Assembly (NCBI RefSeq): GCF_030813915.1
Contig: NZ_JAUSUJ010000009.1
Location: forward strand, 124,001 to 188,000
Length of the DNA stretch: 64,000 nucleotides
Reading direction: 5' to 3'
Origin: Rhodoplanes tepidamans
GTDB lineage: Bacteria > Pseudomonadota > Alphaproteobacteria > Rhizobiales > Xanthobacteraceae
Shown here: positions 38,540 to 61,260 of the stretch, one piece after another
How positions within the stretch are numbered: the first letter of the stretch is position 1
Layout: every line of letters begins with the position of its first letter
Notes under the pieces: model-generated
The model's database searches: none
What the model was told of the DNA's origin: nothing
What the model saw: the letters and a program-made list of their open reading frames with translations, nothing else
Translations under genes and position numbers: made by a program

Positions 38540-38600
38540 GCCGCCCGCGTCCGCTCCGGCCCGCGGTGCCGGCCGGCGTCTCCTGCATCCCGCGCGTCAT
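38385..38600 (-). pseudogene. truncated class I adhesin, N-terminal fragment A
   Basis: On the minus strand, ATG 38600 opens MTRGMQETPAGTAGRSGRGR, then the adhesin signal peptide RLVLLASVAVLSMAALPSG and a class I mature start ARFVCESTDGGGSSAT. After about 70 codons homology ends where the TTT gene begins. The head, stalk and anchor are missing, so it cannot make an adhesin. It keeps its class I upstream element and the duplicated leader. The reading frame happens to stay open antisense through the TTT gene, but that part is not adhesin-like. Confidence 0.8.
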
Positions 38601-38657
38601 GACGGCATCCCCGCGTACCCCGTGTGCGGAGTCAACCTTTCGGCTCGGGGTCGGGAC

Positions 38658-38680
38658 GGCAATTGTGGAAATTTGGGCGG
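38658..38680 (-). promoter_or_regulatory. class I adhesin upstream element, copy 3
   Basis: GGCAATTGTGGAAATTTGGG plus CGG, 57 bases before the start codon of the truncated adhesin. Retained although the gene is broken. Confidence 0.6.
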
Positions 38681-39113
38681 AATATTCCGACGGCCGCGCC
38701 GGCACGCCAGCATCGCGCGGACGCTAAACCGTTCATGGACGGCCGGCTTCCGGCTGTCGCGCGACACCGGTGTGTCGTCGGCCCGGGCGGCTGCACCACG
38801 CGATCGAACGCGCGGCGTTGCCCTGCCGCAACACGGCAACACGCCCCTTGGGTCTCCGAGATTGCCGCCGTCGAGCATGAGAGCGATGAAGTCGCTGCTC
38901 CCGGACCATAAAAAGTCGGGCAGGTCGCGCCGCATCTCAGCGAGCATGTACGGGGAGTCGGCAGTCTCTCGCGAATGCGAGCCGCGTCCAGCCGTTGCGC
39001 GGCCCGCCTCAACACCGGCTTGAAGCCGCGGATGCCGAGTCGAGTAACGGCTTCTCACCTTGATCACCACGCGGCGTGATCTGCCGCGTATCGAACGTCA
39101 GGAGGCCCAGGAT

Positions 39114-39183
39114 GTGTCTATCGAAGATCGAGTGTGTCTGTCGAGGACCGAGAGTGTCTGTCGAAGATAGAGTGTGTCTGTCG
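39114..39183. repeat. 20-bp tandem repeat, 3.5 units
   Basis: Units GTGTCTATCGAAGATCGAGT, GTGTCTGTCGAGGACCGAGA and GTGTCTGTCGAAGATAGAGT at 39114, 39134 and 39154, then a half unit. Lies in the 1.1-kb gene-free stretch between the adhesin fragment and the MFS gene. Confidence 0.85.
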
Positions 39184-39216
39184 GCCGATTGAATGCCTCT
39201 GTGCTCGGACCACAAC

Positions 39217-39312
39217 TCCGGGTACCATAATCAAACCGGATAGGCTTCTGAAATATACTTATGCTTCCGGGTCCCATAACAAAACTGGATAGGCCTCCAA
39301 ATATTTCATATA
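39217..39312. repeat. imperfect ~49-bp tandem duplication, AT-rich
   Basis: TCCGGGTACCATAATCAAAC at 39217 and TCCGGGTCCCATAACAAAAC at 39266 head two adjacent copies, continuing as GGATAGGCTTCTGAAATATA and GGATAGGCCTCCAAATATTT. It precedes the MFS gene and probably includes its promoter. Composition is markedly more AT-rich than the window average. Confidence 0.75.
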
Positions 39313-39486
39313 GGGGAATCCCGGCTGACTCACCTATTGTTTTTCTGCACGGCGGTAAGGGATGCGATCATTCCGCATTCAACCAAACAGCGATACCCCC
39401 GAGCTGTGCAATTACCGCTATCGGTCGTGCAATTGTGCCGTGTGTCGCGGTTGCAGCCACGCCGGCAGGTAAAACGGGGGAGAGTC

Positions 39487-44926: not shown

Positions 44927-46915
44927 TCACTCCGCCGCGACGACCGGCGTCTCGGCTTTCAGCCGCTTGAGATCGGGCGGTACCGCCTCGTCGACGAGTG
45001 CGGCGAGCGCCTGGTCGAGCGGCACCACGGTCGACTTGTCGGAGCCGAGCCGGCGGATCGACACGGTGCGCTCCGCCGCCTCCTTCTTGCCGACCACCAG
45101 CAGCACCGGGACCTTGGCGAGCGAGTGCTCGCGGACCTTGTAGTTGATCTTCTCGTTGCGCAGGTCGATGCCGACCCGCAGGCCCAGGCGGCGCGCCGCC
45201 GCGACCGCCTCCCTGGCGTAGTCGTCGCCGTCCGAGGTGATGGTCGCCACCACGGCCTGCACGGGCGCGAGCCACAGCGGGAAGTGGCCGGCGTGGTGCT
45301 CGATCAGGATGCCGAGGAAGCGCTCCATCGAGCCGCAGATCGCCCGGTGCACCATCACGGGGGTCTTCTTCTGCCCGTCGGCGTCGATGTAGAAGGCGCC
45401 GAACCGCTCCGGCAGGTTGAAGTCCACCTGGGTGGTGCCGCACTGCCAGTCGCGGCCGATGGCGTCGCGCAGCACGTACTCGAACTTGGGCCCGTAGAAC
45501 GCGCCTTCGCCGGGATTGACCGCGGTCTTGATCTTGCCGCCCGACTGCGCGGCGATCTGCTCCAGCACGCGGCCCATCACCTCTTCGGCGTGATCCCACG
45601 AGGCGTCGGAGCCGACCCGCTTCTCCGGCCGGGTCGAGAGCTTGACGGTGAGGTCGCCCGAGAAGCCGAAGTCCTCGTAGGTGCTGAGGATCAGGTCGTT
45701 GATCTTCAGGCACTCCTCGGCGAGCTGGTCCTCGTTGCAGAAGATGTGCGCGTCATCCTGGGTGAAGCCGCGCACCCGCATCAGGCCGTGCATGGCGCCG
45801 GACGGCTCGTAGCGGTGCACCAGGCCGAACTCGGCGAGGCGGATCGGCAGGTCGCGATAGCTCTTCAGCCCGTGCTTGAAGATCAGCACGTGGCCCGGGC
45901 AGTTCATCGGCTTGATGGCGAACCAGCGCTTGTCCTCGGCCTCGTCGCCCGCCGACTGTGCCGCGAACATGTTCTCCCGGTACCACTCCCAGTGGCCGGA
46001 GGTCTCCCACAGGACCTTGTCGAGCATCTGCGGCGCGTTGACCTCGTCGTAGTCGCCGGCGAGGCGGCGGCGCATGTAGGCGACGACCGACTGGAACATC
46101 GACCAGCCCTTGGCGTGCCAGAACACGACGCCCGGGCCTTCCTCCTGGAAGTGGAAGAGATCGAGCTCGCGGCCGAGCTTGCGGTGGTCGCGCTTCTCCG
46201 CCTCCTCGATCTGCTTGAGATAGGCGTCGAGGTCCTCCTGCCTGGCCCAGGCGGTGCCGTAGATGCGGGTCAGCATCGGGTTGTTGGAGTCGCCGCGCCA
46301 GTAGGCGCCCGCGACCTTCATCAGCTTGAACGCGGTGCCGATCTTGCCGGTGGAGGTCATGTGCGGGCCGCGGCACAGGTCGAACCAGTCGCCCTGCTTG
46401 TAGATCTTGATGGTCTGATCCTCGGGGATCGCGTCGACCAGCTCGACCTTGAAGTTCTCCCCCTTGTCCCGGAAGACCTGCTTGGCCTCGTCGCGCGACC
46501 ACACCTCCTTGGTGAACGGCCGGTCGCGCGCGATGATCTCCTTCATCTTCTTCTCGATCGCGGCGAAGTCGTCCGGGGTGAACGGCTCGTTGCGGAAGAA
46601 GTCGTAGTAGAAGCCGTTCTGGATCACCGGGCCGATGGTCACCTGGGTCCCGGGCCACAGGCTCTGCACGGCCTCGGCCATCACGTGGGCGGCGTCGTGG
46701 CGGATCAGCTCGAGGGCGCGCGGGTCGTCGCGCGACACGAACTCGATTTTCGCATCGTGCTCGATCGGGTCGGCGAGGTCGGCGAGCACGCCGTCGAGCG
46801 CCATCGCGACGGTGCGCTTGGCGAGCGAGGGCGAGATGCCTTTGGCGATGTCGAGGCCGGTGATGCCGGTGGGGTACTCCCGACGCGCGCCGTCGGGGAA
46901 GGTCAGGGCGACCAT
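44927..46915 (-). CDS. thrS: threonyl-tRNA synthetase
   Basis: 662 residues, full length: TGS domain (residues 1-60), editing domain with the H-x3-H site ([13 protein letters not shown], about 73-77), class II catalytic core and anticodon-binding domain. Catalytic zinc ligands are recognisable in [13 protein letters not shown] and later His residues ([14 protein letters not shown]). It charges tRNA-Thr and is essential. It is an ordinary housekeeping gene between the adhesin cluster and the TAXI array. Confidence 0.98.
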
Positions 46916-47585: not shown

Positions 47586-48836
47586 ATGACTCGACGGGAT
47601 TTCTTGCCTCGGACGGCTCGACGGCTTCGCGGCGGGCGTCACTGGACCGGCCTGCGGCGCATGGCCGTGGCCGCGGCGGCGATCGTCGCGGCGGCCGCAT
47701 GCGTCACGGCGCTCGGCACCGCGCCGTCGGCCGCGCAGTCGCGGCCGGGCTACGACACGGGCCGCCCCGAGCAGCCGACCCACGCGACGCGGCGTGGGCC
47801 CTCCGAGGCGGCGCTCGGCTCGATCGGCGACCGGGTGAACGCCAACACGGTCACCATCGTCTCCGGCAACATCAACGGCACCTACCTGACCATCGCCTAC
47901 GATCTCTCCGCCGTGCTGGACGACGGCGACTCCTTCCGGGTGCTGCCGGTGATCGGCAAGGGCGGCGGACAGAACATCCGCGACGTGCGCTTCCTGCGGG
48001 GCGTCGACCTCGGCATCACCCAGTCGAACCTGCTGCGCTACTTCCAGCGCACCAACGAGGTCGGCCGCATCGACGACAAGCTCGCCTACGTCGCCCGGTT
48101 GTTCAACGAGGAGATGCATCTCGTGGTGCGGGCGGACTCGGGCGTCCACACGATCGCCGATCTGGCCGGCCAGAAGGTGAACTTCAGCGACGCCGGCAGC
48201 GGCACCCAGCTCACCACCCGCGACGTGTTCACCCGGCTCGAAATCGCCCCGGTCGAGGTCAACATGGGCCAGGCGGACGCGTTCGAGAAGCTGCAGTCGG
48301 GCGAGATCGCCGCCACCGTGCTGATCGCCGGCAAGCCGGCGGCGGCGATGCGCAAGCTCGGCGCCACCTTCCGGATGCTGCCGATCGCCTTCGCCAGGCC
48401 GCTGCAGGGCGACTACCTGCCGGCGCGTCTGACCAGCGAGGACTACCCGGGCGTGATCCCGCCCGGCGAGGCGGTCGACACGATTGCGGTCGGGACCGTG
48501 CTGTTCGCCTACAACTGGCCCCGCAACACCGACCGCTACCGCCGCATCGCCGCCTTCGTCGACCGGTTCTTCCCGCGGCTCGCCGAGTTCCAGAAGCCGC
48601 CGCGCCATCCGAAATGGCGCGAGACCAATCTCAACGCGACGGTGCCGGGCTGGATCCGCTTTCCGGCCGCACAGGAGTGGCTGGAGCGCAACGTCGCCGC
48701 CGACACCACCCGCGAGCAGTTCGAGCGCTTCCTCGCGGCGCGCGGCCCGGTGGCCGGCGACATCGACTCGCCGGCCGAGCGCGAGCGGCTGTTCCAGAAC
48801 TTCCTTCAGTGGAACCAGTCGCGCGAGCGCCGCTGA
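47586..48836 (+). CDS. TAXI family periplasmic binding protein, TAXI1
   Basis: 416 residues. Signal peptide to about residue 55 (ending APSAAQ) with an early TRRDFL that resembles a Tat motif. The TAXI fold follows: TVTIVSGNINGTYLTIAYDL (ligand-loop start), GGGQNIRDVRFLRGVDLGI, then VVRADSGVHTIADLAGQKV. TAXI proteins normally feed TRAP transporters, but no TRAP membrane subunit is near. The C-terminus ends in a shared tail, NFLQWNQSRERR. It is followed 54 bases later by a Sel1-repeat membrane protein, the same pairing as in the three downstream cassettes. Confidence 0.9.
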   Translation: MTRRDFLPRTARRLRGGRHWTGLRRMAVAAAAIVAAAACVTALGTAPSAAQSRPGYDTGRPEQPTHATRRGPSEAALGSIGDRVNANTVTIVSGNINGTYLTIAYDLSAVLDDGDSFRVLPVIGKGGGQNIRDVRFLRGVDLGITQSNLLRYFQRTNEVGRIDDKLAYVARLFNEEMHLVVRADSGVHTIADLAGQKVNFSDAGSGTQLTTRDVFTRLEIAPVEVNMGQADAFEKLQSGEIAATVLIAGKPAAAMRKLGATFRMLPIAFARPLQGDYLPARLTSEDYPGVIPPGEAVDTIAVGTVLFAYNWPRNTDRYRRIAAFVDRFFPRLAEFQKPPRHPKWRETNLNATVPGWIRFPAAQEWLERNVAADTTREQFERFLAARGPVAGDIDSPAERERLFQNFLQWNQSRERR

Positions 48837-48890
48837 CATGAGCGCCCGCGCGACCCGATCGCCCTGCACGAGGAACGGGGAGGAGTACCG

Positions 48891-49973
48891 ATGAGTACCC
48901 CGATCGACGACGATTTCGACCCGCGCATCCGCTACGCACCGCCCTGGGTGCGCGATCCCGACGCACAGGCGCCGTCCGGCCGGCTGCCGGAGAACGGCCC
49001 GGACGACCGGCGTCGCGATCCGCGTCTCGACGCCGAAGCCGGTCCGGTCCGCGCGCCCGATCCGGCGCCGGCCGTGCTGTCGTTCACCGCGGCCCCGAGC
49101 ATGGCACCCACCGCCATCGAGCGCGACGCGCCGGTGCGGCGGGGCGCTTCGGGGCGCGCCGGCGACGGCGCATCGCGCGAGCGGCCGGCGCGGTCGACGC
49201 GCGACCCGCAGCGGAGCGTGCCGGAGCCGCCCCGGACCGGAAGCCGGGTCTCGGCCCGGGGGGCGACCCGGGCCGCGACGCCGTCGGCGTCACGGCGGAT
49301 GCGCCCGGTGCTGATGAGCGTCGCCGCCGCCGCCGTCACGGCAGCGGCGGTGTCGGCGCTGCTGACCGGTCCGGCCGTCCCGCCGCCGGGTGCCGAGCGG
49401 GCCGCGGCGCCCGGTCAGCCCGTCGCCAAGACCGACCGCTCGCGGCTCGGCGATCCGCGCGACGGTGCCGATCCGGCCCGGCCGGACGAGCCCGTGCGGG
49501 CGGCCGAGCCGGCGCGGCCGGCCGAGCCGGTCCGCTCCGCCGCGCCGGAGCGCCGCCAGGGCGACGAGGCGGTCGTGCAGGCGGCGGTTGGATCGGTCGC
49601 GGCGGTCTTGCCGGCGCCGACCGCGCCGCCCGCACCGGTGGCCCCGGCGGTCGCCGTGCCGTCCCGGCCGGCAGCGCCGAGCCTCGTGCTGCCGCCGGGC
49701 GAGATGCTGGTGCTGATCAAGCGCGGCCAGGACGCCATCGAGGCCGGCGACATCGCCGGCGCCCGGCTGCTGCTGACCCGCGCCGCCGAGGCCGGGAACG
49801 CGCACGCGGCGCTGCTGCTCGGCACCACCTACGATCCGGCGGCGCTGCGCGAGCGCAAGGTGCTCGGCCTCGCCGGCGATCCGCAGCAGGCCCGGTTCTG
49901 GTACGAGCGTGCCGCCGACCTCGGCTCCACCGACGCCGGGCGAAGGCTGGACGATCTGGCGCGCGGCCGCTGA
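48891..49973 (+). CDS. membrane-anchored Sel1-repeat protein, cassette 1
   Basis: 360 residues. Starts MSTPIDDDFDPRIRYAPPW, the N-terminal box shared by all four paralogues. It is followed by a charged, disordered cytosolic stretch, one membrane segment (about 137-160, VLMSVAAAAVTAAAVSALL), a Pro/Ala/Arg-rich linker and a C-terminal Sel1-type repeat region (MLVLIKRGQDAIEAGDIAGARLLLTRAAEAG ... ARFWYERAADLGSTDAG). Unlike its paralogues it lacks the GDVAIREL box and the beta domain before the Sel1 part. GGGGAGGAG precedes the ATG. The periplasmic Sel1 part could contact the TAXI protein; this is inference. Confidence 0.82.
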   Translation: MSTPIDDDFDPRIRYAPPWVRDPDAQAPSGRLPENGPDDRRRDPRLDAEAGPVRAPDPAPAVLSFTAAPSMAPTAIERDAPVRRGASGRAGDGASRERPARSTRDPQRSVPEPPRTGSRVSARGATRAATPSASRRMRPVLMSVAAAAVTAAAVSALLTGPAVPPPGAERAAAPGQPVAKTDRSRLGDPRDGADPARPDEPVRAAEPARPAEPVRSAAPERRQGDEAVVQAAVGSVAAVLPAPTAPPAPVAPAVAVPSRPAAPSLVLPPGEMLVLIKRGQDAIEAGDIAGARLLLTRAAEAGNAHAALLLGTTYDPAALRERKVLGLAGDPQQARFWYERAADLGSTDAGRRLDDLARGR

Positions 49974-50862
49974 GCGCCGCGTCGCCGCGGCGTCGTCGCC
50001 GCGGTGGCGGCCGTGGACGTGACCGACCGGCCGTGAGTCCGGTCGGTCGTCGCGCTGCGGGGCGCGGGTCGCGCCGCGGCTCACGTCAGATCGCGGTCCT
50101 CGCCCCATCGCGAAGACTACGGACCGCGGCTCGTGCGCGCGCCGCCTCGGGCGGTTCGGCATGGCCGGTCGACGGGCCGGCGACGGTGCCGGTGAATCGC
50201 GGTCAACCGCGCGGCAGCAAATAACAATCGGCGCAAGTCGAAATCGAAAAGAGCGGCCGTGTTTGCTCGGTCGCGACAAGCATTCGAGGCCTCGTGATCC
50301 GCAACATGCAGGGAGGCGAGGCACTTCGGGTTAAGAATTCGTTAGTGCGATCACAAAGTGGCCAAATTGCAGAGTCACGGTTTTGCTCGGGGACAGGGGG
50401 AGCTCGACCGGACAGCACGGTTCAAACATCACAATCGAAATCCTCGACCGGATCCGCCGGACGCATCGTCGATCGACGTCGTGATCGACATCGTCGGCCG
50501 GGATCGCGATCGAGACGGTCGCTCCGGCGACGTCCTGCCCATGGCGTGGTCGACGTCTCGACCGTCGTCGTGCCGGCGTGACGGTGTCGCGGCGAGCCGC
50601 ATGCGTCGTCGGCCGCGAGGCCGCGGCGCGCACGGAACGGCGCGCGCTCCGGCGCGCGGCGCGGATGCCTGCGAGTCGCGTGTGCGAGTCTTGTGTCAGT
50701 CGGCGCGAGTGAGTGCGTGTGAGAGTGCGTCAGTGCGTGAGTACGTGAGCACGAGTGCGTGAGTGTGAGTGCGTGAGTGCGTGAGTTTGTGAGTTCGTGA
50801 GTTCGTGAGCGTGAGTGTGTGAGCGTGGAGAAGTTCGGCATCCGGAGCACGGGGAACGCTTC
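49974..50862. other. intergenic region between cassettes 1 and 2
   Basis: 889 bases with no supported gene. It includes the CAAAGTGGCCAAAT motif (50354-50367) preceded by ATTCGTTAG (50337-50345), and ends in a degenerate GTGAGTGC tract directly before the TAXI2 start. Long frames on the minus strand here extend through the downstream genes and are coding shadows. Confidence 0.5.
50704..50826. repeat. degenerate GTGAGTGC low-complexity tract
   Basis: About 120 bases built from GTGAGTGCGTGAGT-like units with small variations (GAGTTCGTGAGTTCGTGAG). It ends 36 bases before the TAXI2 ATG, so it lies in the untranslated leader or promoter. Length changes by slippage could alter expression. Confidence 0.8.
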
Positions 50863-52119
50863 ATGGATGAAGGCCTGCAGCGGGCGTGCTGGTGGCATGC
50901 CTGTTCTCGCGTCCTGACGGCAGCGGCGGCCGCTGCGGCCTTCTTCGCCATGATCGGTCTCGGGCTCGCAACCGTGCCCTCCGCCGCCGCGCAGGCGTCG
51001 CCGCCGCGCGCGGCGGCGGAGGTCTCCCAGGCGGTCGGAAGCGCCGGGCGGCCGCGTTCGGCGCCGCGCCGGTCGACCGGCGAGCCGGCGCTCGGGCCGC
51101 TCGCCGAGCAGGCCAATGCCGACACGCTGACGATCGTCGCCGACGGTGTGGAGACGACGGCGCTCGCCGCCGCCGCCGATGTCGCCGCGGTGATCGACGG
51201 CGGCGAGGGCCTGCGGGTTCTGCCGATCGCCGGCCGCGGCGGCGGCCAGGCGATCCGCGACGTGCGCCTGCTGAAGGGCGTCGATCTCGGCATCGCGCCG
51301 GCCACGGCGCTCGGCCTGCTGCAGCGGTCGAACGCGATCGGCCGGATCGACGACAAGATCAGCGTCGTCACCAAGCTGTTCAACGAAGAGATCCACGTCG
51401 TGGTGCGGACGGATTCGCCGGCCGGCACGGTCGCGGATCTGGCCGGCAAGCCGGTGGCGCTCGGCGAGACGGGCTCCGCCACCGCGCTGACGGCGGGCGA
51501 CGTCTTCGACAAGCTCGGCGTCGCGGTGGACGGCGTCAACCTGCCGGGCGCCGACGCGCTGGAGAAGCTGCGCGCCGGCGAGATCGCCGCCGCCGTGCTG
51601 GTGTCGGGCAAGCCGGCCGCCGCGATGGCGCGGCTTCCGGCCGGGACGTTCCGGCTGCTGCCGCTCGACTACGCCAAGCCGCTGCAGGCCGACTATCTCC
51701 CGGCGAGGCTGACGGCCGACGACTATCCGGGCCTCGTCGCGCCGGACGCCGCGGTCGCCACCGTGGCGGTCGGCACCGTGCTGTTCGCGCCGACCTGGCC
51801 GAAGGGATCGGAGCGCTACAAGCGCATCGAGCGCTTCGTCGGAGCCCTGTTCCCGAAGCTCGCCGAGCTGCAGAAGCGGCCGCGCCATCCCAAGTGGCTG
51901 GAGACGAGCCTCGCCGCGACGGTGCCGGGCTGGTCGCGCTTTCCGGCCGCCGAGGAGTGGCTGCGCCGGAACGCGCCGCCGACGCAGATCTCGCGCGAGC
52001 AGTTCGAGAGGTTCCTGGCGAGCCGCCGCGTCGCGGCGGACGACGCCGCGACGACGGTCGACCGCGAAAAGCTGTTTCAGGAGTTCTTGCGCTGGAACGA
52101 GACGCGTGAGCGCCGCTGA
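50863..52119 (+). CDS. TAXI family periplasmic binding protein, TAXI2 (divergent)
   Basis: 418 residues. Signal peptide ends VPSAAAQ (near residue 46). The TAXI core is kept (GRGGGQAIRDVRLLKGVDLGI, NEEIHVVVRTDSPAGTVADLAGKPV), but the first ligand loop, SGNINGTYLTIAYD in TAXI1, reads VADGVETTALAAAAD here, losing the usual glycines and aromatics. The pocket may therefore be altered or non-functional. The C-terminal tail FLRWNETRERR is conserved. The gene is 45 bases upstream of its Sel1 partner. Confidence 0.88.
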   Translation: MDEGLQRACWWHACSRVLTAAAAAAAFFAMIGLGLATVPSAAAQASPPRAAAEVSQAVGSAGRPRSAPRRSTGEPALGPLAEQANADTLTIVADGVETTALAAAADVAAVIDGGEGLRVLPIAGRGGGQAIRDVRLLKGVDLGIAPATALGLLQRSNAIGRIDDKISVVTKLFNEEIHVVVRTDSPAGTVADLAGKPVALGETGSATALTAGDVFDKLGVAVDGVNLPGADALEKLRAGEIAAAVLVSGKPAAAMARLPAGTFRLLPLDYAKPLQADYLPARLTADDYPGLVAPDAAVATVAVGTVLFAPTWPKGSERYKRIERFVGALFPKLAELQKRPRHPKWLETSLAATVPGWSRFPAAEEWLRRNAPPTQISREQFERFLASRRVAADDAATTVDREKLFQEFLRWNETRERR

Positions 52120-52164
52120 CCGCCGGCGTCCGGTGTTCCGCGCCCGTCGGGTGGAGGAGTTGTC

Positions 52165-53931
52165 ATGAGTGCCCCGATCGACGACCAAGGCTTCAGCGAC
52201 GCCTTGCGCTATGCGCCGCCCTGGGCCCGTCGGATCGCCCCCGAGACGGCCGACGCGGACCTGCGCACCGCGACGCCGGAGCCGGCCGTCGACGCGACCG
52301 GGGCGGGCTTCGACCTCGCCGACGACCTCGCAGCGGACGACACCGCCCCCGACGATCCGGCGCGCGACGACCCGGGACAGGCCGGCGTCCCGCACGACGA
52401 CGACCCGGGTGCGGACCTCGCGCGCCCCGACTTCGCACAGGCCGACTTCGCACACGACGACTTCGGACGCCCCGAGGTCCCGCCTTCGCCCGTCGCGCCG
52501 GGTGGCGCCGGCCCCGAGGTCATTCTCGGCGTGCGGTTCGGCGACACGCCGACGCTGCCGCAGGATCTCGACGAGCTCGCCGCCGCGCGCAGGCGCGCCC
52601 GACGGGCGGCCGCGGGGAACCGCGGCGTCGAGGCTGGGCGCGAGGCGGGGCAGGGGACGGCGCCGGTCGATCGCGCCGCCGAATCCATGCCGGCCCCGGA
52701 GGCCGCGGGCGCCGACGCGGTGCCGCTGCCGCGCGCGCCGGCCCTGGCCGAGCCGCCGCGCCAGGAGGAGCAGCGCCCACCCGCCGTCTGGCTGGTCGCC
52801 GAGACCGCGCCGATCCGCACCGAGCCGCCGCGGCAGGAGCCGCCGCCGGTGGTCGAGTCGCCCGCCACGGTGCCGTCGCCCGGTGATCCCGGCGGCTTCG
52901 GCTGGCTCAGGCCGCGGCCGTTCGAGGGCGACGTGGCGGTGCGCGAGATGTCCCGGCGCCTGGCGCTCGATCCGCACGGCGTGCCCGAGCCGCCGCGCCC
53001 CGACCGGCTGCGGGTGCCGTGGCGGGGCGCCGCCGCGCTCGCCGCCCTGGCCGGAGTCTCGGCCGCCGTGGCGCTCGCCCTGGTGACGGTGCTGTTCCCC
53101 GGGCCCGTGCCGGCCGGGCGGGACCAGGCGCGCGGACCGGCGCTCGCCAGCACCAAGACGGACCGCGCCCTGATGGCCGGCCTGGAGCGGGCCGCGCCGG
53201 TGCGGCTGGTGCTGGTCGAGCTGCGTCGCGCGGCGCGCGGCGAGGAGGTGCCGCTCGGCATCACCCTGACCCGCGGCCTCGGCGAAGGCACGCTGGTGCT
53301 GACCGGCCTGGTGCCGGGCAGCCGCCTGACCGTCGGCATGCCGGCGGGGCCGGAGAGCTGGCGGGTGCCGCTCGCCGAGCTCGGCCGCGCCGCCGTGGTG
53401 CCGCCCGCGGACTTCGTCGGTGCCCTGGAGCTCGGGCTCGAGCTGCGTCTCGCCGACGACACGGTCGCCGATCGCGGCACCATGCGGATCGAGTGGAACG
53501 GTGCGGTGATCATGGCGCTCGGCGCCGAGGGGACGGCAGCCCGGGCCGCCCCGGCCGCGCTGCGCGGCACGACCGCGGCCCGGCCCGGCGCGGCCCGGCC
53601 GGACCCGGCGCCTGCCGTGGCCCCGGCGGTACCGGTCCCGGCGGTCGACCCGGAGGAGATCGCCATCCTCATCGACCGGGGCAAGACGTTCCTGGCCCGC
53701 GGCGACCTCGCCGCCGCCCGGCTGCTTCTGCGCCGTGCCGCCGAAGCCGGCGACGCCGCCGCGGCACTGCTGCTCGGCTCGACCTTCGACCCGGCCGCGC
53801 TGAAGCAGCTCGAGGTGCTGGGCGCGGTCGGCGACGCCGCCCAGGCGCGGATCTGGTACCGGCGGGCGGCCGAGCTCGGCTCGGCCGACGCCGCCCGCAA
53901 GCTCGGAGCGCTCGGCGATCGGGCGCCCTGA
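52165..53931 (+). CDS. membrane-anchored Sel1-repeat protein, cassette 2
   Basis: 588 residues, the longest of the four. N-terminal box MSAPIDDQGFSDALRYAPPW, then an Asp-rich stretch with four pentapeptide-like units (ADLARPDFAQADFAHDDF). The box RPFEGDVAVREMSRRLAL lies before one membrane segment (about 290-312). Next is a beta domain (LVLTGLVPGSRLTVG ... VVPPADFVG) resembling single Ig-like repeats of large adhesins, then the Sel1 region near the C-terminus (LLLRRAAEAGDAAAALLLG ... IWYRRAAELGSADAARKL). GTGGAGGAG precedes the ATG. Confidence 0.82.
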   Translation: MSAPIDDQGFSDALRYAPPWARRIAPETADADLRTATPEPAVDATGAGFDLADDLAADDTAPDDPARDDPGQAGVPHDDDPGADLARPDFAQADFAHDDFGRPEVPPSPVAPGGAGPEVILGVRFGDTPTLPQDLDELAAARRRARRAAAGNRGVEAGREAGQGTAPVDRAAESMPAPEAAGADAVPLPRAPALAEPPRQEEQRPPAVWLVAETAPIRTEPPRQEPPPVVESPATVPSPGDPGGFGWLRPRPFEGDVAVREMSRRLALDPHGVPEPPRPDRLRVPWRGAAALAALAGVSAAVALALVTVLFPGPVPAGRDQARGPALASTKTDRALMAGLERAAPVRLVLVELRRAARGEEVPLGITLTRGLGEGTLVLTGLVPGSRLTVGMPAGPESWRVPLAELGRAAVVPPADFVGALELGLELRLADDTVADRGTMRIEWNGAVIMALGAEGTAARAAPAALRGTTAARPGAARPDPAPAVAPAVPVPAVDPEEIAILIDRGKTFLARGDLAAARLLLRRAAEAGDAAAALLLGSTFDPAALKQLEVLGAVGDAAQARIWYRRAAELGSADAARKLGALGDRAP

Positions 53932-54442
53932 CCGGCGGACCGGGCGAGCTTTTGCAGGTTTTCCGGGGCGCGCCGCAGGATGCGGTGCGATCGGGAATGC
54001 TTTCGGATGCAAGGGGTGAGAATTTTGCTGCGTTCACAGTTCGCCAGATTTGAGCCGTATTTTCTACATCTGGCGGCCGCAAGTTTCTTGGTTTGGCCCG
54101 ATCCGTATCTCCGACCGTCGGGCGGTAACCAATCATAAAGGTTTTCGACGAAACAGAAAAGCTATCCAGTTCAACGACTTATCTCGATAAATTCCAGGAG
54201 TTCGAAGCCGGCCGCCCGTCGGGGCCGGGGACACCCGCCATGGGGTTCGGCGGGTGCGAGCCGTCGCGAGTCGGCTAAGCCGATAGGGCCAAAATAATGA
54301 TCTTTGCTTAACCGAGGTGTTTATTTTGTTGCGAGGTATGATATTATGTGTAAGGTTTCGGTGTTCAGTGGGAATTGCGTAGCCATGGACTGCTGTGGTC
54401 GCGATCCGGTCCGCTCCCCTCGTCGTTGATGCGGGAGCGCGG
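53932..54442. other. intergenic region between cassettes 2 and 3
   Basis: 511 bases, AT-rich at 54100-54190 and 54285-54370. CACAGTTCGCCAGATT (54036-54051) is a weaker match to the CAAAGTNGCCAAAT motif before cassettes 1 and 2. No gene is supported. Confidence 0.45.
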
Positions 54443-54832
54443 ATGGAGTCGGTAGGACACATGTGCATGCGCCGGCGGTGGCCTGGCGCAGTGCGGAGCT
54501 TGGCGGCGGTAGCGACCGGCCGCCCGGCGGTCCGCATCGAAGGCCCCGCGGCGGCGCAGTCGCACCGCGGACCCGTGTCCGGCCCCCACGGCAGGGGCGC
54601 GCCCGACCTCGTCGCAAATTCCGATTCCGTCGCCGATTCCGATCTCGTCTCCGATCCCGCGCCCGCCGCCGATCGCCGCGGCCGTCGTCGGCGTCTCGAC
54701 CGGATCGTCGCGGCGCGCGACGCGGTCGCGTCGCGTGATCCGGCGTCGCCCGGGCGCCGGCGGGCCGAGATCGACCGGGCGATTCACGACCTCGTGCCGT
54801 GGAACTGGACGGCGATGCGCGCACGCCGGTGA
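54443..54832 (+). pseudogene. shrunken TAXI gene, cassette 3
   Basis: A 129-codon open frame in the place where the other cassettes have a ~410-residue TAXI gene. The leader GATGCGGGAGCGCGG and start match those of TAXI3 (GACGCGGGAGCGAGG). The first ~35 codons form a signal-peptide-like segment (PGAVRSLAAVATG ... PAAAQS). The end, RRAEIDRAIHDLVPWNWTAM then RARR, aligns with the TAXI3 end (HAEVEQMFREFMQWKDTRPRR). Everything between, i.e. the ligand-binding fold, is gone and replaced by an Asp/Ser/Arg-rich linker. It may be an internal deletion remnant still translated to keep the Sel1 gene coupled. Confidence 0.7.
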
Positions 54833-54864
54833 GGAGGGCGAGCCCGATGGATGGGGGGACGACC

Positions 54865-56103
54865 GTGACGACACCGATGGACGACGATCACGATCCGCGC
54901 ACCAAGTATGCGCCGCGCTGGGCACGGCCGATCGTCGACGAGGCCGACATGGAGCCGGAGCCCGAGGCGCCCGACATTCCCGACTACATTCTGCGGTCGC
55001 GCCTGCGGGTGGACGATGCGCCGCCCTCCGCGCCGGTGGCGCCCGGCGCCCGGCCGGTGCGCGGCGCCGAGCCCGCCGACGAGTGGCCCCGCCGGGGCGG
55101 GCGGCCGTTCGAGGGCGACGTCGCCATCCGCGAGCTCAACGAGCGGCTGGCCCTGCATCCCGACATCGTGCCGGAGCCGCGGCGTGCTCCGCGCCGGCGC
55201 TGGGGCCGGACCATCGGCCGGGCCGCCCTGACGCTGACCGGCGCGGTCGGCCTCGCCGCCGGCCTGATGGTGTTCGGAATGCCGCTGCTCGACCGCGAGA
55301 TGTCGGGCGGGGTGCGGACCGCCTTCCGGCCGGCCTCGCCGCGCCCGGCCGCCGAGCCGGCGGCACCGGCGGTCCCGGCTCGCCTGTCGATCGGCGCGGG
55401 TCGCTTCGCCGCCGCCAACGAGATCGTCCCGCTCCCGGTCTCGCCGTCGTATCCGATCGATGGCCACCTGGCGGTGGGCGGGCTTCCGGCCGGCGCCCGG
55501 CTCACCACGGGCGCCCCGCTGGCGCCGAACGGCTGGCTGGTGCCGATCGCGCTTCTGCCCCAGACCTCGATCGTCCCGCCGCCCGATTTCGTCGGGCCGA
55601 TCAACCTGGTGATGGAGCTGCGCCGCCCCGACGACACGGTGCTGGACCGCGGCACGCTGCAGATCGCCTGGGGCCACACCGCCGCGCCGGCGGCACCGCC
55701 GGTCCAGGCGTCGGCCGCCACGCCGGCCGCGGCCTCGGCCGTCCCGTCGTCGCCCGCCACGGAGAGCGTGGCCGCGACCACACCGGCGACGCCGGCCGCC
55801 GGGCCGGTCAGGCGGCTCGATCCCGAGGAGACCGCCGCGTTGATCAAGCGTGGCCAGGAGCTGCTCGCCAGCGGCGACCTCGCTTCGGCGCGGTTGATGC
55901 TCCGGCGTGCCGCCGAGGGCGGCAGCGCGGCGGCGGCCCTGCTGCTCGGCAGCACCTACGACCCGGCGACCTTCCGGCAGCTGGTCGTGATCGGCGAGAC
56001 GCCGGACCAGGCGCAGGCTCACTTCTGGTATCAGCGCGCCGCCGAGCTCGGCTCGACCGACGCCGCCCGCCGGCTCGACTTGCTCGCCCGCGGCGTCCGC
56101 TGA
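54865..56103 (+). CDS. membrane-anchored Sel1-repeat protein, cassette 3
   Basis: 412 residues from GTG 54865, chosen because it aligns with the starts of the paralogues (MTTPMDDDHDPRTKYAPRW) and follows GGGGGGACGACC; an ATG at 54847 would add six residues. Then come the box RPFEGDVAIRELNERLALHP, a single membrane segment (about 122-145) and a beta domain (HLAVGGLPAGARLTTGAPL ... SIVPPPDFVG). A Pro/Ala linker leads to Sel1 repeats (LIKRGQELLASGDLASARLM ... HFWYQRAAELGSTDAARRL). It is intact although its TAXI partner is reduced. Confidence 0.82.
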   Translation: MTTPMDDDHDPRTKYAPRWARPIVDEADMEPEPEAPDIPDYILRSRLRVDDAPPSAPVAPGARPVRGAEPADEWPRRGGRPFEGDVAIRELNERLALHPDIVPEPRRAPRRRWGRTIGRAALTLTGAVGLAAGLMVFGMPLLDREMSGGVRTAFRPASPRPAAEPAAPAVPARLSIGAGRFAAANEIVPLPVSPSYPIDGHLAVGGLPAGARLTTGAPLAPNGWLVPIALLPQTSIVPPPDFVGPINLVMELRRPDDTVLDRGTLQIAWGHTAAPAAPPVQASAATPAAASAVPSSPATESVAATTPATPAAGPVRRLDPEETAALIKRGQELLASGDLASARLMLRRAAEGGSAAAALLLGSTYDPATFRQLVVIGETPDQAQAHFWYQRAAELGSTDAARRLDLLARGVR

Positions 56104-56910
56104 TCACACGGCCCGGAGGCCGGCGCCGGCTGCCGGCCCGACCTCCGGCGGATCGTGGTCGGATCGACCGCGGCATTGTCTGCGCTGCATCGGCACCGTC
56201 CCGAGGATTTCCGCCCGCGTTCTCCCGCCGGAAGCCGCCGCGCCGGTCATGTCCTTCCGCGTCTCCCCGCCCATCCCGGGCTCCTGGTCCGTGCCGGGCT
56301 CCGGACCCGCACCGGGCTCCTGGCTCGTACCGATCGGCGCGTGCGTCGGCGCCCGCCGGCGACCGTGGGCATGCCCGCGGCGTCGGGGCGGGACGCGGCG
56401 GCGACGAGGTGGTTATTCGGGCTGGGCCCAAAAGCCGGCCCTGCTCGGGAGCCACGCGACGGTCCGGTTATTGCCACACTGTCGGTGGAGCGAAATAGGG
56501 TGAACCTTTTTCAGGTTGTGATCGCGCCGGACCGATAAGGGCGCGGGCGCGTGACGCTCGCTCGTCAATTCTTCTCGTCATCTTTTGCTGTCGATAAAAA
56601 CAAACTAATGTCAGGTACATGTGTAGATATTGTGCGGATAAATTAGCATTTAATCACGTTCGTTATTGCAGGTTGTGCGGTGGTGCAAGAGTCCGAAAAT
56701 GTAACACGAGCGGGCTAGTCGCAGCCATGTTTACGATAAATTGCATAGCTGTCCAATCAATGATGAATCTTTCTTGTTGCATGGTATGAAAACGGTAGGT
56801 TAGCAGTGAATACTCTTTGGAAGTCTCGGTAGGGTCGGGTATGGCGTTGCGTCGGCCGGTTGTCGGCCACGATCCGGTTCGCGCCCACGAGAGAAGACGC
56901 GGGAGCGAGG
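56104..56910. other. intergenic region between cassettes 3 and 4
   Basis: 807 bases; 56560-56850 is strongly AT-rich for this genome. No convincing gene; the short frames present lack domain or codon support. It should include the promoter of cassette 4. Confidence 0.45.
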
Positions 56911-58128
56911 ATGGATCGGTTCGGTGGAGAGTGCGGGCGGCGTGAGCGGCCCGGTATCGCACGTCGCATGATCGGGGTCGCGACCGCGGCCGTCGCGCTG
57001 GCGGCCTGGTTCGGCCAACCCGCGGCGGCGCAGCCGCGCCATGGCGCCGAGGACAAGGCGCCGCTCGTGCTCACGCAGGCGCAGTCGCGTGTGTCCGGGC
57101 TGCCGGCCGGCTACGGCGAGCGCATGAACAACAACACGCTCACGGTCATGACGAGCGCGCCCGGCGGCGGCTGGCTGCTGCTCGGCCACGATATCGCGAC
57201 GGTGCTGGACGACGGCGAGGAGATGCGCATCCTGCCCCTGGTCGGGCGGGGCGGCGGTCAGAATGTCCGCGACGTGCGCTTCCTGAAAGGGGTCGATCTC
57301 GGCATCGTGCAGCTCAACGTGCTGACCGAGATGCAGCGCACCAACGAGATCGGCCGGCTCGACGACAAGATTTCCTACATCGCCAAGCTGTCCAACGACG
57401 AGATGCATGTCGTCGTCCGGGCGGACTCGGGCATCAACTCGCTCGCCGACCTGAACGGCAAGCGAGTGAACGTCCACAACGCCGGCAGCGGCACGGCGAT
57501 GCTGGCGCCGAGCGTGTTCGCCAAGCTCGGGGTGCAGCCGATCCTGACCAACATGCCGCAGGCCGACGCGCTCCTGAAGATGAAGTCGGGCGAGATCGCC
57601 GCGACGATCCTGATCTCGGGCAAGCCGCTGTCGCCGTATCAGCGGCTCGCAGCCGGGTCGGGATATCGTCTTCTCCCGATTCCCTACAGCCGGCAGCTGC
57701 ACAGCGAGTTTCTGCCCGCGACGCTGTCGTCCGCGGATTACCCGAACCTCATCGCCGCGGGGCAGGAGGTGGAGACGATCGCGGTCAGCACCCTGCTGAT
57801 CGCCTACAACTGGCCGAAGAACACCGATCGCTATCGCCGCATCGCCAACTTCGTGCACCGTTTCTTCGAGCACATCGAACAGTTTCAGAAGCCGCCGCGC
57901 CATCCGAAGTGGCGGGAGATCAATCTGCACGCCTCGGTGCCCGGCTGGCACCGGTTCCCGGCCGCCGAGGAGTGGCTGCAGCACAACTCGCAGGCGCGCG
58001 AGATCAGACAGCAGTTCGATCGCTTCCTCCTGGCGCGGGACGGCAACGCGCGTCCGCAGAGCCATGCCGAGGTCGAGCAGATGTTCCGTGAATTCATGCA
58101 GTGGAAGGACACCCGTCCGCGCCGCTGA
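56911..58128 (+). CDS. TAXI family periplasmic binding protein, TAXI3
   Basis: 405 residues. The signal peptide ends QPAAAQ (about residue 35). The core is well conserved with TAXI1: MTSAPGGGWLLLGHDIATVL, GRGGGQNVRDVRFLKGVDLGIV, VVRADSGINSLADLNGKRV and MKSGEIAATILISGKPL. It ends FMQWKDTRPRR. The leader GGGAGCGAGG gives a good ribosome site. The Sel1 partner follows 42 bases later. The ligand is unknown. Confidence 0.9.
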   Translation: MDRFGGECGRRERPGIARRMIGVATAAVALAAWFGQPAAAQPRHGAEDKAPLVLTQAQSRVSGLPAGYGERMNNNTLTVMTSAPGGGWLLLGHDIATVLDDGEEMRILPLVGRGGGQNVRDVRFLKGVDLGIVQLNVLTEMQRTNEIGRLDDKISYIAKLSNDEMHVVVRADSGINSLADLNGKRVNVHNAGSGTAMLAPSVFAKLGVQPILTNMPQADALLKMKSGEIAATILISGKPLSPYQRLAAGSGYRLLPIPYSRQLHSEFLPATLSSADYPNLIAAGQEVETIAVSTLLIAYNWPKNTDRYRRIANFVHRFFEHIEQFQKPPRHPKWREINLHASVPGWHRFPAAEEWLQHNSQAREIRQQFDRFLLARDGNARPQSHAEVEQMFREFMQWKDTRPRR

Positions 58129-58170
58129 GCATCGCGTGCGGCTCGGATGACGACTGGAAGGGGGTGGAGC

Positions 58171-59334
58171 GTGACGGCATCGATCGACGACAGCGACCCG
58201 CGTGTATCCTACCCACCGCCATGGGGACGGCCGGTCGGCGAGGAGCCCTACGCCGAGGCGCCCTACGCCGAGGCGCATGACGATGCCGCCGACCTGTCCG
58301 ACCTCGGGCAGCGCGTGCGCAGCCGCACCGACGCGGCGCCGGTCGCCGGGCCGGCGCGTGCGTCCGCCGCACCGGAACGGGCGCGCCGGGGGGCCCGGCC
58401 GTACGATGGCGACGTCGCCATCCGCGAGCTCGAGGAGCGGCTGAGCCTCGATCCAGACCTCGTCCCCGAACCGCGGCGGGCGCCGCGGTCCGGCGTGTGG
58501 CGGACCATCGGCCGGGTCGCGCTGGTGCTGAGTGGCGCGGCAGCGCTGGCGGGCGGAGCCGTGGTGTTCGGCCTCCCGGCGCTGGAGCGTGCCGGCTCGG
58601 GGACGTCGCAGCAGGCCGCGCCGGTGAGCATGACGCTCGGCAGTGGCCGGGTCGCCGGCATCGACGAGCCGATTCCGCTAGCGGTCGGGCTGTCGCGTCC
58701 GGTCGATGGCCATCTGGCGATCGGCGGCCTTCCGTTCGGCATGCGGCTCACCACGGGCAGGCCGCTGGCGCCGGACGGCTGGCTGGTGCCGGTTTCCCTG
58801 ATCGGGCAGACATCGGTCGTTCCGCCGCGCGGCTTCTCGGGACGTGCCAACCTGGTCGTCGAGCTGCGCCGGCCCGACGACGCGGTGCTGGCTCGGGCCA
58901 ACCTGCAGCTCGGCTGGTCGGAGCCGGCGCCGCCCCCGCGGCCGGTGCAGAACGCCCCGGCCGGCGCGGTGACGCCGTCCGCGACGAGCGTGCCGCCGGC
59001 GTTCACGGCCCGGCCGATGCGGCCCGGCCCGGCCGCCACCGCGGCCCCGCCGATCGACCCCAACGAAGCCGCAGCCATGATCAAGCGGGCCGAGGATCTC
59101 GTCAGCCGCGGCGATCTCGCCTCGGCCCGGCTGCTGCTGCGGCGTTCCGCGTCCGGCAACGGGCACGCGGCGCTGCTGCTGGGGATGACCTACGATCCCG
59201 ACACCTTCTCGCAACTCTCCGTCATCGGCGAGGTGCCGGACCCGGAGAAGGCCCAGTTCTGGTATCAGCGCGCCGCCGAGCTCGGCTCGTCGGACGCCGC
59301 CCGCAAGCTGGAGGCGCTGGCGCGCGGCCGCTGA
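58171..59334 (+). CDS. membrane-anchored Sel1-repeat protein, cassette 4
   Basis: 387 residues from GTG 58171, by alignment with the paralogues (MTASIDDSDPRVSYPPPW) and because GGGGGTGGAGC precedes it. Box RPYDGDVAIRELEERLSLDP, one membrane segment (about 115-140), beta domain (HLAIGGLPFGMRLTTG ... SVVPPRGFSG), Pro/Ala linker and Sel1 repeats (MIKRAEDLVSRGDLASARLL ... FWYQRAAELGSSDAARKL). Its last 70 bases overlap the convergent yidD gene. Confidence 0.82.
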   Translation: MTASIDDSDPRVSYPPPWGRPVGEEPYAEAPYAEAHDDAADLSDLGQRVRSRTDAAPVAGPARASAAPERARRGARPYDGDVAIRELEERLSLDPDLVPEPRRAPRSGVWRTIGRVALVLSGAAALAGGAVVFGLPALERAGSGTSQQAAPVSMTLGSGRVAGIDEPIPLAVGLSRPVDGHLAIGGLPFGMRLTTGRPLAPDGWLVPVSLIGQTSVVPPRGFSGRANLVVELRRPDDAVLARANLQLGWSEPAPPPRPVQNAPAGAVTPSATSVPPAFTARPMRPGPAATAAPPIDPNEAAAMIKRAEDLVSRGDLASARLLLRRSASGNGHAALLLGMTYDPDTFSQLSVIGEVPDPEKAQFWYQRAAELGSSDAARKLEALARGR

Positions 59335-59696
59335 GCATCGTCGCATGCGCAAGCCGCCGGCGCGGTCCGCACCGGCGGCTCGGCGAGCGTGCCGCGCCAG
59401 CGGCCGTAACGCCAGGGCAGCCACCAGCGGGCGCCCGCCGGCAGCTCGGCCGGCACGAAGTCGAGCCCCCGGGTGCCGAACGGGTGGCAGCGGCAGAACC
59501 GCGCCAGCGTCATCCAGCCGCCGGCCCACAGGCCGAACCGGTCGATCGCCTCGTCCCCGTAGACCGAGCAGGTCGGCAGGTGCCGGCACTGCGTCCCCAC
59601 GAACGGCGACAGCGTGAGCTGATACGCCCGGATCAGGCCGCGGGCGGCGATCCGCGGCAGCCGGGACACGAGGTCGGCGGTCGGGTGGTGTGGCAT
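59265..59696 (-). CDS. yidD: membrane protein insertion efficiency factor YidD
   Basis: 143 residues. YidD helps YidC insert inner-membrane proteins. The signature is intact: LIRAYQLTLSPFVGTQCRHLPTCSVYGDEAI, then GGWMTLARFCRCHPFGTRG, with the three conserved cysteines. The C-terminal ~55 residues beyond the core are Arg/Ala-rich and overlap the convergent Sel1 gene, so their coding value is doubtful; the real protein may effectively be shorter. Confidence 0.88.
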   Translation of the reverse strand: MPHHPTADLVSRLPRIAARGLIRAYQLTLSPFVGTQCRHLPTCSVYGDEAIDRFGLWAGGWMTLARFCRCHPFGTRGLDFVPAELPAGARWWLPWRYGRWRGTLAEPPVRTAPAACACDDAQRPRASASSLRAASDEPSSAAR

Positions 59697-59973: not shown

Positions 59974-61260
59974 ATGAAGCGGTGCTGGGTCGTGAAGCGA
60001 TCCTGGGTCGGCGCGGTCGCTCTGGCGATCTTCGCGATGCCGGTGGTCGCCGGCACGCCGGAGCTTCCGGCCAACCCCCGCATCCTGCCGATGCAGTTCG
60101 TCCTGCAGGAGCCGGCCGCGAGCTGCGCCGCCGACTGCCGGCCGCTCGTCTTCGCCGCCGGAATGATCACGTCCGACACGCCGCGCCGCTTCGAGGCCTT
60201 CGCGGTCGAGCGCGGCCTGCGCGACGGCACGGTGGTGCTCGACTCCGACGGCGGCTCGGTGCTCGGCGCACTGGCGCTCGGGCGATCGATCCGGCGCCTC
60301 GGGCTCGACACCACGGTCGGCCGCGCCGACCGGTCGGGCGGGGCCGGACGGGCCGCGACCGTCGCCCCGGCGAACTGCGAATCCATGTGCGCCTTCGTGC
60401 TGCTCGGCGGGACGCACCGCGAGGTGCCGGCCCGCTCGCGCGTCCTCGTCCATCAGATCTGGCTCGGCGACCGCCGCGACGACGCCGTCGCCGCGTCCTA
60501 CTCGGCCGAGGATCTGGTGCTGGTGCAGCGCGACATCGGCGCCATCGTCCGCTACACGGCCGAGATGTCGGGCAATCTCGGCGGCGCCGCCGAGCTGATC
60601 GAGATCGCGCTGCGCATCCCGCCCTGGGAGCCGATGCGGCTGCTCACCCGCGACGAGCTGCGCCGGACCGGCCTCGACCGCGAGACCGTGCCGGTCGCCG
60701 CCCGCCAGACCTCGGCGGCCGTGGTGCCGGCATCGCTGACGCCCGACCGGGTGCCGGCGATGAGCGAGCGCGGCTGGAGCGCGGTCGAGGGGAGCAGCGG
60801 GCCGATGCTGGTGCGCCGGCACCCGCTGACCGTCGAGGGCGAGCGGATCGGCACCTTCGACCTCAGCCTGAGCTGCGGCGACGCCGCCGGCACCTACGCC
60901 CTGACCTATGCGGAGAAGCGGCACGGCGGCGCCGGCGGGGCCGACGCGCCGACGCTGGAGAACGCCCGCCTGTGGATCGAGCAGAGCGAGGTGCCGTTCG
61001 AGATCCTGTCGTCGCGCAGCGACGGCGCGCGGGCCGAGAGCGTCGCGATCGCCACCGTTCCGGCGGCGCTGGTGCGCACCTTCGCCGGCGCGGCCACCCG
61101 TTCGCTGTCGGTGCAGACCAGGGCGCCCGGCGGCGCCGCGACCTCGACCCGGATCGGCAATGCCGGCATCGGCAAGGTGTTCGCCAAGCTGGAGACGGCC
61201 TGCGGGCGGGGCAACGGCAAGCGCGACGCCCATGCCCGCCTGGAGGCGGCGGCGCGCTGA
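59974..61260 (+). CDS. exported ClpP-fold protein, unknown
   Basis: 428 residues. Signal peptide to about residue 28 (ALAIFAMPVVAGT). The N-terminal half has the ClpP/crotonase serine-protease pattern: GTVVLDSDGGSVLGALALG, then CESMCAFVLLGGTHREVPA with the probable catalytic Ser, and RVLVHQIWLG with His. The C-terminal half (from about 260) is a beta-rich domain (LSLSCGDAAGTYALTYAEK). Similar periplasmic ClpP-like proteins are widespread in Hyphomicrobiales without a known role. The ATG at 59974 gives the best signal peptide. Confidence 0.8.
   Translation: MKRCWVVKRSWVGAVALAIFAMPVVAGTPELPANPRILPMQFVLQEPAASCAADCRPLVFAAGMITSDTPRRFEAFAVERGLRDGTVVLDSDGGSVLGALALGRSIRRLGLDTTVGRADRSGGAGRAATVAPANCESMCAFVLLGGTHREVPARSRVLVHQIWLGDRRDDAVAASYSAEDLVLVQRDIGAIVRYTAEMSGNLGGAAELIEIALRIPPWEPMRLLTRDELRRTGLDRETVPVAARQTSAAVVPASLTPDRVPAMSERGWSAVEGSSGPMLVRRHPLTVEGERIGTFDLSLSCGDAAGTYALTYAEKRHGGAGGADAPTLENARLWIEQSEVPFEILSSRSDGARAESVAIATVPAALVRTFAGAATRSLSVQTRAPGGAATSTRIGNAGIGKVFAKLETACGRGNGKRDAHARLEAAAR

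Follow-up and report, generated by a model that had tools for sequence, protein, structure and literature searches.

Tandem pairs of TAXI-family binding proteins and membrane-anchored Sel1-like proteins in Rhodoplanes tepidamans: a candidate receptor pair of Alphaproteobacteria

Here we describe an array of four tandem two-gene units in Rhodoplanes tepidamans, located in a stretch of 64,000 nucleotides (the window; positions 124,001 to 188,000 of contig NZ_JAUSUJ010000009.1, here C9, which has 226,678 bases in a 6.86-Mb genome). Each unit couples a solute-binding protein of the TAXI family to a membrane-anchored partner with a C-terminal Sel1-like domain, here named SEL, and we tentatively interpret the couple as a receptor pair and not as part of an uptake system. 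The units (TAXI1-SEL1, TAXI2-SEL2, TAXI3 remnant-SEL3 and TAXI4-SEL4) lie on the plus strand between two genes that, from reading their sequences, we take to be thrS and yidD, with TAXI-to-SEL gaps of 54, 45, 32 and 42 bases, respectively, and roughly 460-890 bases upstream of every unit (Table 1). An earlier note on this DNA had described four same-strand units comprising three intact TAXI genes and one remnant at 32-54-base spacing, and both its coordinates and this layout were confirmed. The third TAXI gene is read as a probable core-deleted pseudogene, because only its ends resemble TAXI4 in two-sequence comparison (first ~34 residues, E 6e-6; last ~39, E 0.006; best match to TAXI1 only E 0.13) and because its coding score is weak (16, versus 109-223 in the seven intact genes). 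Between positions 44000 and 60500 no RNA element matched Rfam at E 0.1.

Table 1. Coordinates of the array and its boundary genes in the window.
Feature	Description	Position	Strand	Remark
Left boundary	thrS-like gene, syntenic anchor	44927..46915	-	
TAXI1	TAXI-type solute-binding protein, signal-peptide-like N-terminus, pocket Y + Q	47586..48836	+	start alternatively 47661
SEL1	disordered N-part with YAPPW motif, one helix, without Ig-like domain, C-terminal Sel1-like domain	48891..49973	+	
Tandem repeat	degenerate 8-base tandem repeat 5' of TAXI2	50703..50823	.	
TAXI2	TAXI protein, A + P at two key pocket positions	50863..52119	+	longer frame starts 50815
SEL2	longest partner; YAPPW motif, helix, Ig-like domain, Sel1-like domain	52165..53931	+	
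TAXI3 remnant	TAXI start and end recognisable, core gone	about 54395..54832	+	weak coding score
SEL3	YAPRW motif, helix, Ig-like domain, Sel1-like domain	54865..56103	+	GTG start set by SEL1/SEL4 alignment
TAXI4	divergent TAXI protein, pocket W + Q, structure predicted	about 56968..58128	+	start uncertain, 56860-56968
SEL4	YPPPW motif, helix 109-133, Ig-like 154-249, Sel1-like 297-386	58171..59334	+	
Right boundary	yidD-like gene; 3' end overlaps SEL4 end	59265..59696	-	

The intact TAXI proteins are recognisable family members, matching the NMT1_3 profile of Pfam (cut-off 27) at 65.9 (TAXI1), 48.8 (TAXI2) and 74.7 bits (TAXI4), while the TRAP_TAXI model of NCBIfam (TIGR02122, cut-off 84.35) is passed by TAXI1 (92.6) and TAXI4 (91.9) and TAXI2 falls below it (70.3). 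A structural model of TAXI4 built from a 52-row alignment (predicted local distance difference test score, pLDDT, 89.2; predicted template modelling score, pTM, 0.80) was compared with the PDB, where the seven best chains are TAXI proteins or 'immunogenic proteins' of the same family, the closest being glutamate-bound VcGluP (9ibo) and the Thermus thermophilus TAXI with glutamate (8u79, 1us4), at template modelling scores by target of 0.79-0.82 and 19-21% identity. Two further C-terminal helices are seen in the model (331-357 and 366-382); this tail is present in 77 of 85 paired and 26 of 29 unpaired alignment rows, under labels slightly unlike those of the tree given below (for L191-L210 they take no account of contig ends), and is absent from 8 paired rows. 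As it is not tied to pairing, the tail was rejected as a docking site for SEL. With TAXI4 as query against 60 genomes, the window's own included, matches fell into two separated score groups, at least 195 versus at most 65 bits, the lower also taking in a contig-end fragment of one clade member. Because of this split the array TAXIs are assigned to a distinct TAXI clade.

In VcGluP, Y45 and Q93 are among the most important residues of the ligand pocket, according to PMC11574862. Our reading of the pocket is limited to these two positions, mapped via alignment with 1us4: both are kept in TAXI1 (Y/Q), one is changed in TAXI4 (W/Q), and both are lost in TAXI2 (A/P). Among 52 aligned TAXIs the Y45-equivalent is aromatic in 45 and the Q93-equivalent is Q in 32 and R in 10, with 30 combining an aromatic residue and Q. 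All ten R rows derive from loci in which the SEL gene comes first (Bradyrhizobium, Methylobacterium and others), and at least three rows from such SEL-first loci (L162, L164, L165) have Q. These patterns suggest a working pocket in many members and a ligand that changed between lineages, with the ligand of TAXI2-type proteins perhaps changed or lost.

Alignments of the SEL proteins define a common layout of a disordered N-terminal part, one helix, an Ig-like domain in three of the four (it is missing from SEL1) and a C-terminal Sel1-like domain, in agreement with the earlier description of a single membrane helix and, usually, an Ig-like domain. In contrast, the 'Sel1 repeats' of that description stand only as a Sel1-like C-terminus: a profile from relatives matches a solved Sel1 repeat protein (E 6e-22), but what is present is one domain of ~95 residues, scoring under the Pfam cut-off in all four SELs (21.7-25.8 versus 30.7). 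The proposed conserved DPR-YAPPW N-terminus was likewise borne out in part, with Y[AP]PxW in all four window SELs and DPR before it in three, not in SEL2; a GDVA[IV]RE segment precedes the helix in three of the four. YAPxW was considered as a universal SEL motif and rejected, as Y[AP]PxW is found in 6 of 99 called SELs, four of them from the window. A model of SEL4 (36 rows, pLDDT 76.5, pTM 0.40) is mostly disordered to residue 108, followed by a helix (109-133), a beta domain (154-249, pLDDT ~97), a loose linker and helices at 297-386 (~90-98); a Foldseek search with it gave no match at E 1e-3 or better. All four window SELs have one helix-like segment with the more positive side N-terminal, which places the Sel1-like end outside. 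Extending this to 80 adjacent SEL frames, 68 have a helix-like segment ahead of the Sel1-like domain, 11 have none and one is too short to judge; the N side of the helix is the more positive in 54 of the 68, with 9 ties and 5 opposite.

The association between the two genes is not confined to the window. In 397 genomes of the window's order, with membership set at profile E up to 1e-25 for TAXI and up to 1e-8 for the SEL domain, the TAXI clade was found in 101 and the SEL domain in 114, and both occur in 92 where 29 would be expected (101 x 114 / 397; Fisher p 2e-57), leaving 9 genomes with TAXI only and 22 with SEL only. The association persists at the level of genera (142 genera: TAXI 49, SEL 51, both 42; p 7e-20). 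In listings limited to 150 TAXI and 150 SEL matches, a listed SEL lies no more than 6 kb from 92 of the TAXIs, with the strand shared in 91 cases, and these 92 neighbours represent 74 genomes, 35 genera and 19 families; pairing by nearest distance mislabels the gene order within the window's own array. In a sample of the phylum (E up to 1e-40) the clade was present in 17 of 398 genomes, 13 in the window's order, 4 in other alphaproteobacterial orders and none outside the class. Other phyla were covered by a pattern scan only, which retained 80 loci, all but one of them alphaproteobacterial by title and that one labelled just Proteobacteria.

Among the 80 nearest named loci, which are close kin by selection, SEL lies on the same strand as TAXI in 64 (63 adjoining, one two genes off); in the other 16, TAXI lies within about 0.9 kb of a sequence end (9), SEL is on the opposite strand only (3) or there is none (4). 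SEL is missing despite both flanks being present in L107, L115, L116 and L151, of which L115 has poor gene calls. Leaving out known duplicate loci, directly adjacent same-strand pairs were found at 74 loci, of which 35 have a single pair with TAXI first, 34 a single pair with SEL first, and 5 more than one pair. These 74 fall into 29 flank contexts, with sizes of 23, 21, three of 2 and 24 singles (partly reflecting short contigs). Clustering of neighbours gave locus-specific families, none of the 30 listed recurring in all contexts, and a third conserved gene in the unit was rejected among them. In a tree of 131 clade TAXIs, with rows partly hand-chosen, SEL accompanies 85, another 28 stand alone and 18 lie so close to a contig end that no call is possible; the unpaired proteins are scattered across the tree. 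The earlier note had raised the prospect that related TAXIs occur mostly without the Sel1 gene; with a SEL in 64 of the 80 nearest loci and 85 of 131 tree rows paired, this is not so. A shared function of the TAXI and SEL genes is well supported.

Furthermore, the pair lacks the permease that its family name would imply. No DctM match was found on the window's entire 227-kb contig (DctQ was not searched for separately), in line with the earlier statement that no DctM-like genes lie in the window. The window's genome has 16 DctM matches, 15 over cut-off and all on other contigs, and its ordinary TAXI gene (C10:149-1012) lies beside DctM (C10:1530-2792), providing a built-in positive control. 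Searching 120 loci of relatives (L051-L170; a clade TAXI was called in 109, a few loci are duplicates and a few have incomplete gene calls), we found DctM in two, 3.1 kb away in L065 and about 10 kb away in L055, neither adjoining the pair, and so none with the flanking TRAP permease that the earlier note had asked after. DctM genes are present in 29 of 30 genomes tested, own included; genome G245 has TAXI-SEL pairs and no DctM match in an assembly 88% complete, and the one-contig genome G172 has two TAXI-SEL pairs, its sole DctM match lying far off with a DctP neighbour of its own. Across the window's genome, the 30 genomes and the 120 loci, a hidden nearby TRAP permease was rejected as a general feature, and GltS was rejected as a TAXI partner, PF03616 being found in 1 of the 30 genomes and not in the window's. 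The absence of a dedicated TRAP permease is thus well supported.

Other transporter genes were encountered beside members of the clade. Unpaired clade TAXIs lie divergent from or beside TctC-TctB-TctA genes in L061 (9078-13568; contig C15 of the window's genome), L067 and L073, as recognised by Pfam for L061 and the TctA of L073 and by family clustering for L067; these TAXIs possibly serve a tripartite tricarboxylate transporter (TTT) permease. In L213 (1920-6570, minus strand) a TAXI, a SEL, an ATP-binding cassette (ABC) permease, an ATPase and an NMT1-type binding protein follow on one strand, and L218 is alike by gene lengths. In addition, 16 loci encode, some three genes away from the pair, another TAXI-family protein (~480 residues; e.g. 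L149 9992-11440) whose N-terminus resembles a membrane anchor.

Domain fusions offer a further view of function. The clade TAXI domain is fused to a Cache domain in two proteins (L071, L072), to Peripla_BP_6 in two (L191, L192) and to Cu/Zn superoxide dismutase in L194. Cache and Peripla_BP_6 are ligand-binding modules, and such fusions would favour sensing. Peripla_BP_6 proteins also serve ABC uptake. On the partner's side, a bacterial SH3 domain ends the SEL of Methyloceanibacter L117, L127 being alike in alignment, and L079 (5630-6895, plus strand) encodes a caspase-like (Peptidase_C14) protein with a SEL domain at its C-terminal end.

The history of the array was examined through its flanks and trees. 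Relatives commonly have a TAXI-SEL pair next to thrS: a thrS-family gene is part of the flank in 21 of the 23 loci that make up the largest context group, and in L051, L052 and L053 one pair lies between thrS and the folE/hisI side. TAXI2 groups with proteins of R. elegans and R. serenus (100% by the Shimodaira-Hasegawa-like approximate likelihood ratio test, SH-aLRT), and because SEL2 groups with proteins of the same two species plus one of G004 (98%), the two genes of unit 2 seem to have travelled together. The protein with the highest identity to TAXI1 comes from outside the genus (68%, L092), TAXI4 sits on a long branch, and SEL3 and SEL4 group weakly (89%). These groupings indicate that the units are old and differentially kept, and not the product of a recent burst. 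TAXI-SEL-TAXI-SEL arrays in L110, L112 and L114 share the window's thrS-side context, with second TAXIs from a distant branch. The earlier proposal that amplification serves diversity or dose can be narrowed to diversity as the better fit, since the copies are old and differ at key pocket positions.

Several further genes surround the array. On its thrS side lie four YadA-like adhesin genes (25585-27906, 29009-31537, 31681-34896 and 42325-44547, minus strand), all with YadA_head and two with a membrane anchor over or near the cut-off; in R. elegans (L084) two relatives of this family lie beside thrS. A D-glutamate cyclase-like gene adjoins a TctC gene and a major facilitator superfamily gene at 36344-40803 (plus strand). 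A Rhodoplanes genome close to the window's has been reported with 434 TctC-type binding proteins (PMC5994714). Beside yidD, at 59974-61260 (plus strand), is a member of a protein family present in 14 loci including the window, with no Pfam match at E 0.001.

Taken together, the genes, the predicted folds, the SEL topology, the deep linkage, the lack of a local DctM and the divergence at key pocket positions are supported by computation. We favour, with a probability of roughly 45%, a reading in which each unit encodes an extracytoplasmic non-transport receptor pair, with ligand-loaded TAXI docking on membrane-anchored SEL. The TAXI protein, probably exported judging by the signal-like N-termini as we read them, would close round a small ligand, probably a carboxylate such as an amino acid. 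It would then dock on the periplasmic part of SEL, formed by the Ig-like and Sel1-like domains, with no hand-over to a permease, a step that is plausible; SEL, as a co-encoded single-pass protein, would keep the docked TAXI at the inner membrane. The liganded state may be read out via SEL, either through its cytosolic segment across the membrane or through another periplasmic protein that the Sel1-like domain would capture, and several old copies with different pockets would supply several ligand inputs to one design.

A number of observations weigh against this receptor reading. SEL occurs without a neighbouring TAXI in L077, L064, unit 3 of the window and G002 (L086), where it stands alone between thrS and yidD and no clade TAXI was found in the genome; a clade TAXI match is lacking in 22 of the 114 genomes with SEL, and, conversely, 28 of 131 tree rows and 9 of 101 genomes have a TAXI without SEL. 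Both key pocket residues are gone from TAXI2, and the combination of an aromatic residue with Q is missing from 22 of the 52 aligned proteins. G028 has a fused-type DctM 3.1 kb downstream of a pair, and an ABC transporter operon comes after a pair in G172 and, judging by gene lengths, also in G223. The 30 listed neighbour families include no conspicuous kinase, chemoreceptor or regulator. The N-terminal Y[AP]PxW motif is present in just the 6 of 99 called SELs noted above, plus one read in L214, and the called SELs of L110, L112, L114 and L168 begin close to the Ig-like domain, without an obvious long cytosolic stretch (their starts being uncertain), so cross-membrane signalling by the cytosolic part may not be the conserved core. 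With no output partner found, and with some SELs apparently devoid of a cytosolic part, we lean towards sensing as the output but do not claim it as a result. Of the earlier suggestion of sensing or surface assembly in place of uptake, sensing has gained from the Cache and Peripla_BP_6 fusions and from the absence of GltS in 29 of 30 genomes, whereas surface assembly finds little support beyond the SH3 domain of one scanned SEL relative.

Among the alternatives, the likeliest, though in our view unlikely, is that TAXI serves a permease of the TRAP, TTT or ABC type encoded elsewhere, with SEL merely tethering it or recruiting it there. Candidate permeases are at hand, with DctM genes in 29 of 30 genomes and one pair ahead of an ABC operon (L213), and TAXI-GltS offers a precedent for a TAXI with a non-TRAP permease, as described in PMC12344293. 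However, no permease lies consistently beside the pair, GltS itself is absent in 29 of 30 genomes, and G245 has pairs and no DctM match, albeit in an assembly 88% complete; similarly, the clade TAXIs by TctCBA genes, which would otherwise speak for feeding in trans, are not SEL-paired, L061 and L067 being alone and L073 near a contig end.

We consider it quite unlikely that TAXI and SEL act in a cell-envelope assembly as structural or chaperone-like components, with ligand binding secondary or lost. The SH3 domain on the L117 SEL (and, in alignment, L127), the lost pocket of TAXI2 and the superoxide dismutase fusion of L194 would fit such a role, as would the action of rhizobial Sel1/tetratricopeptide repeat proteins in polar growth and envelope control (RgsF, ExoR; PMC7327166 and PMC4550343), but the Y45-equivalent is aromatic in 45 of 52 members, the Cache and Peripla_BP_6 fusion partners bind ligands, and the 30 listed neighbour families show no prominent division or peptidoglycan gene. 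Very improbable is a neutral linkage, under which the two genes lie together only through descent from a single locus and the array reflects drift after tandem duplication. Although one context accounts for 23 of the 74 adjacent loci (thrS flanking 21 of these) and a single Bradyrhizobium context for another 21, and although one window copy is a pseudogene, this explanation is largely refuted because adjacency is kept in both gene orders and in further unrelated contexts and because co-occurrence holds at genus level.

A more specific form of the receptor reading is speculative and, as a whole, unlikely: that TAXI-SEL is an undescribed kinase-free one-helix class of ligand receptor in Alphaproteobacteria, in which liganded TAXI would bind the Ig/Sel1 domain and switch the disordered cytosolic segment of SEL (with the YAPxW and GDVAIREL motifs in the window), pockets having changed by lineage and arrays multiplying the ligand inputs.

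The clade resembles the binding proteins of TAXI-TRAP systems (VcGluP, T. thermophilus TAXI) in predicted fold, family profile and, in 30 of 52 members (allowing any aromatic for Y), key pocket residues, and differs in that the array TAXIs have no nearby DctM and in the two further C-terminal helices of the TAXI4 model. PodJ combines a cytosolic part, one helix and a periplasmic Sel1 part. ExoR is a further example of alphaproteobacterial periplasmic Sel1-like repeats (PMC4550343). SEL departs from proteins of the ExoR/PodJ type in carrying just one short Sel1-like domain, in most cases preceded by an Ig-like domain, and in having a co-encoded TAXI. In the TAXI-GltS system of Bordetella pertussis, as presented in PMC12344293, TAXI likewise left the TRAP permease for another co-encoded partner, which was found through genome context and fusions; there, in contrast, GltS is a transporter, whereas SEL is a single-pass protein with no recognised transport domain. 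Bordetella BctC, as cited in PMC5994714, is a periplasmic binding protein with a role in signalling and not only in transport, but no histidine kinase was seen beside the TAXI-SEL pair and SEL is without a known output domain. TAXI-GltS and sensor-acting binding proteins such as BctC are the closest precedents, and in a library of open-access papers, subscription papers and preprints lying outside the search, we found no paper joining TAXI and Sel1.

These findings have consequences for how such proteins are named and studied. The curated model that matches them (TRAP_TAXI) names them TRAP transporter subunits, and such names can mislead because the clade is co-inherited across Alphaproteobacteria with a non-transporter partner. 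TAXI-SEL provides a defined two-gene test case for the role of orphan binding proteins, and may represent an undescribed sensing or regulatory pair, not an uptake system.

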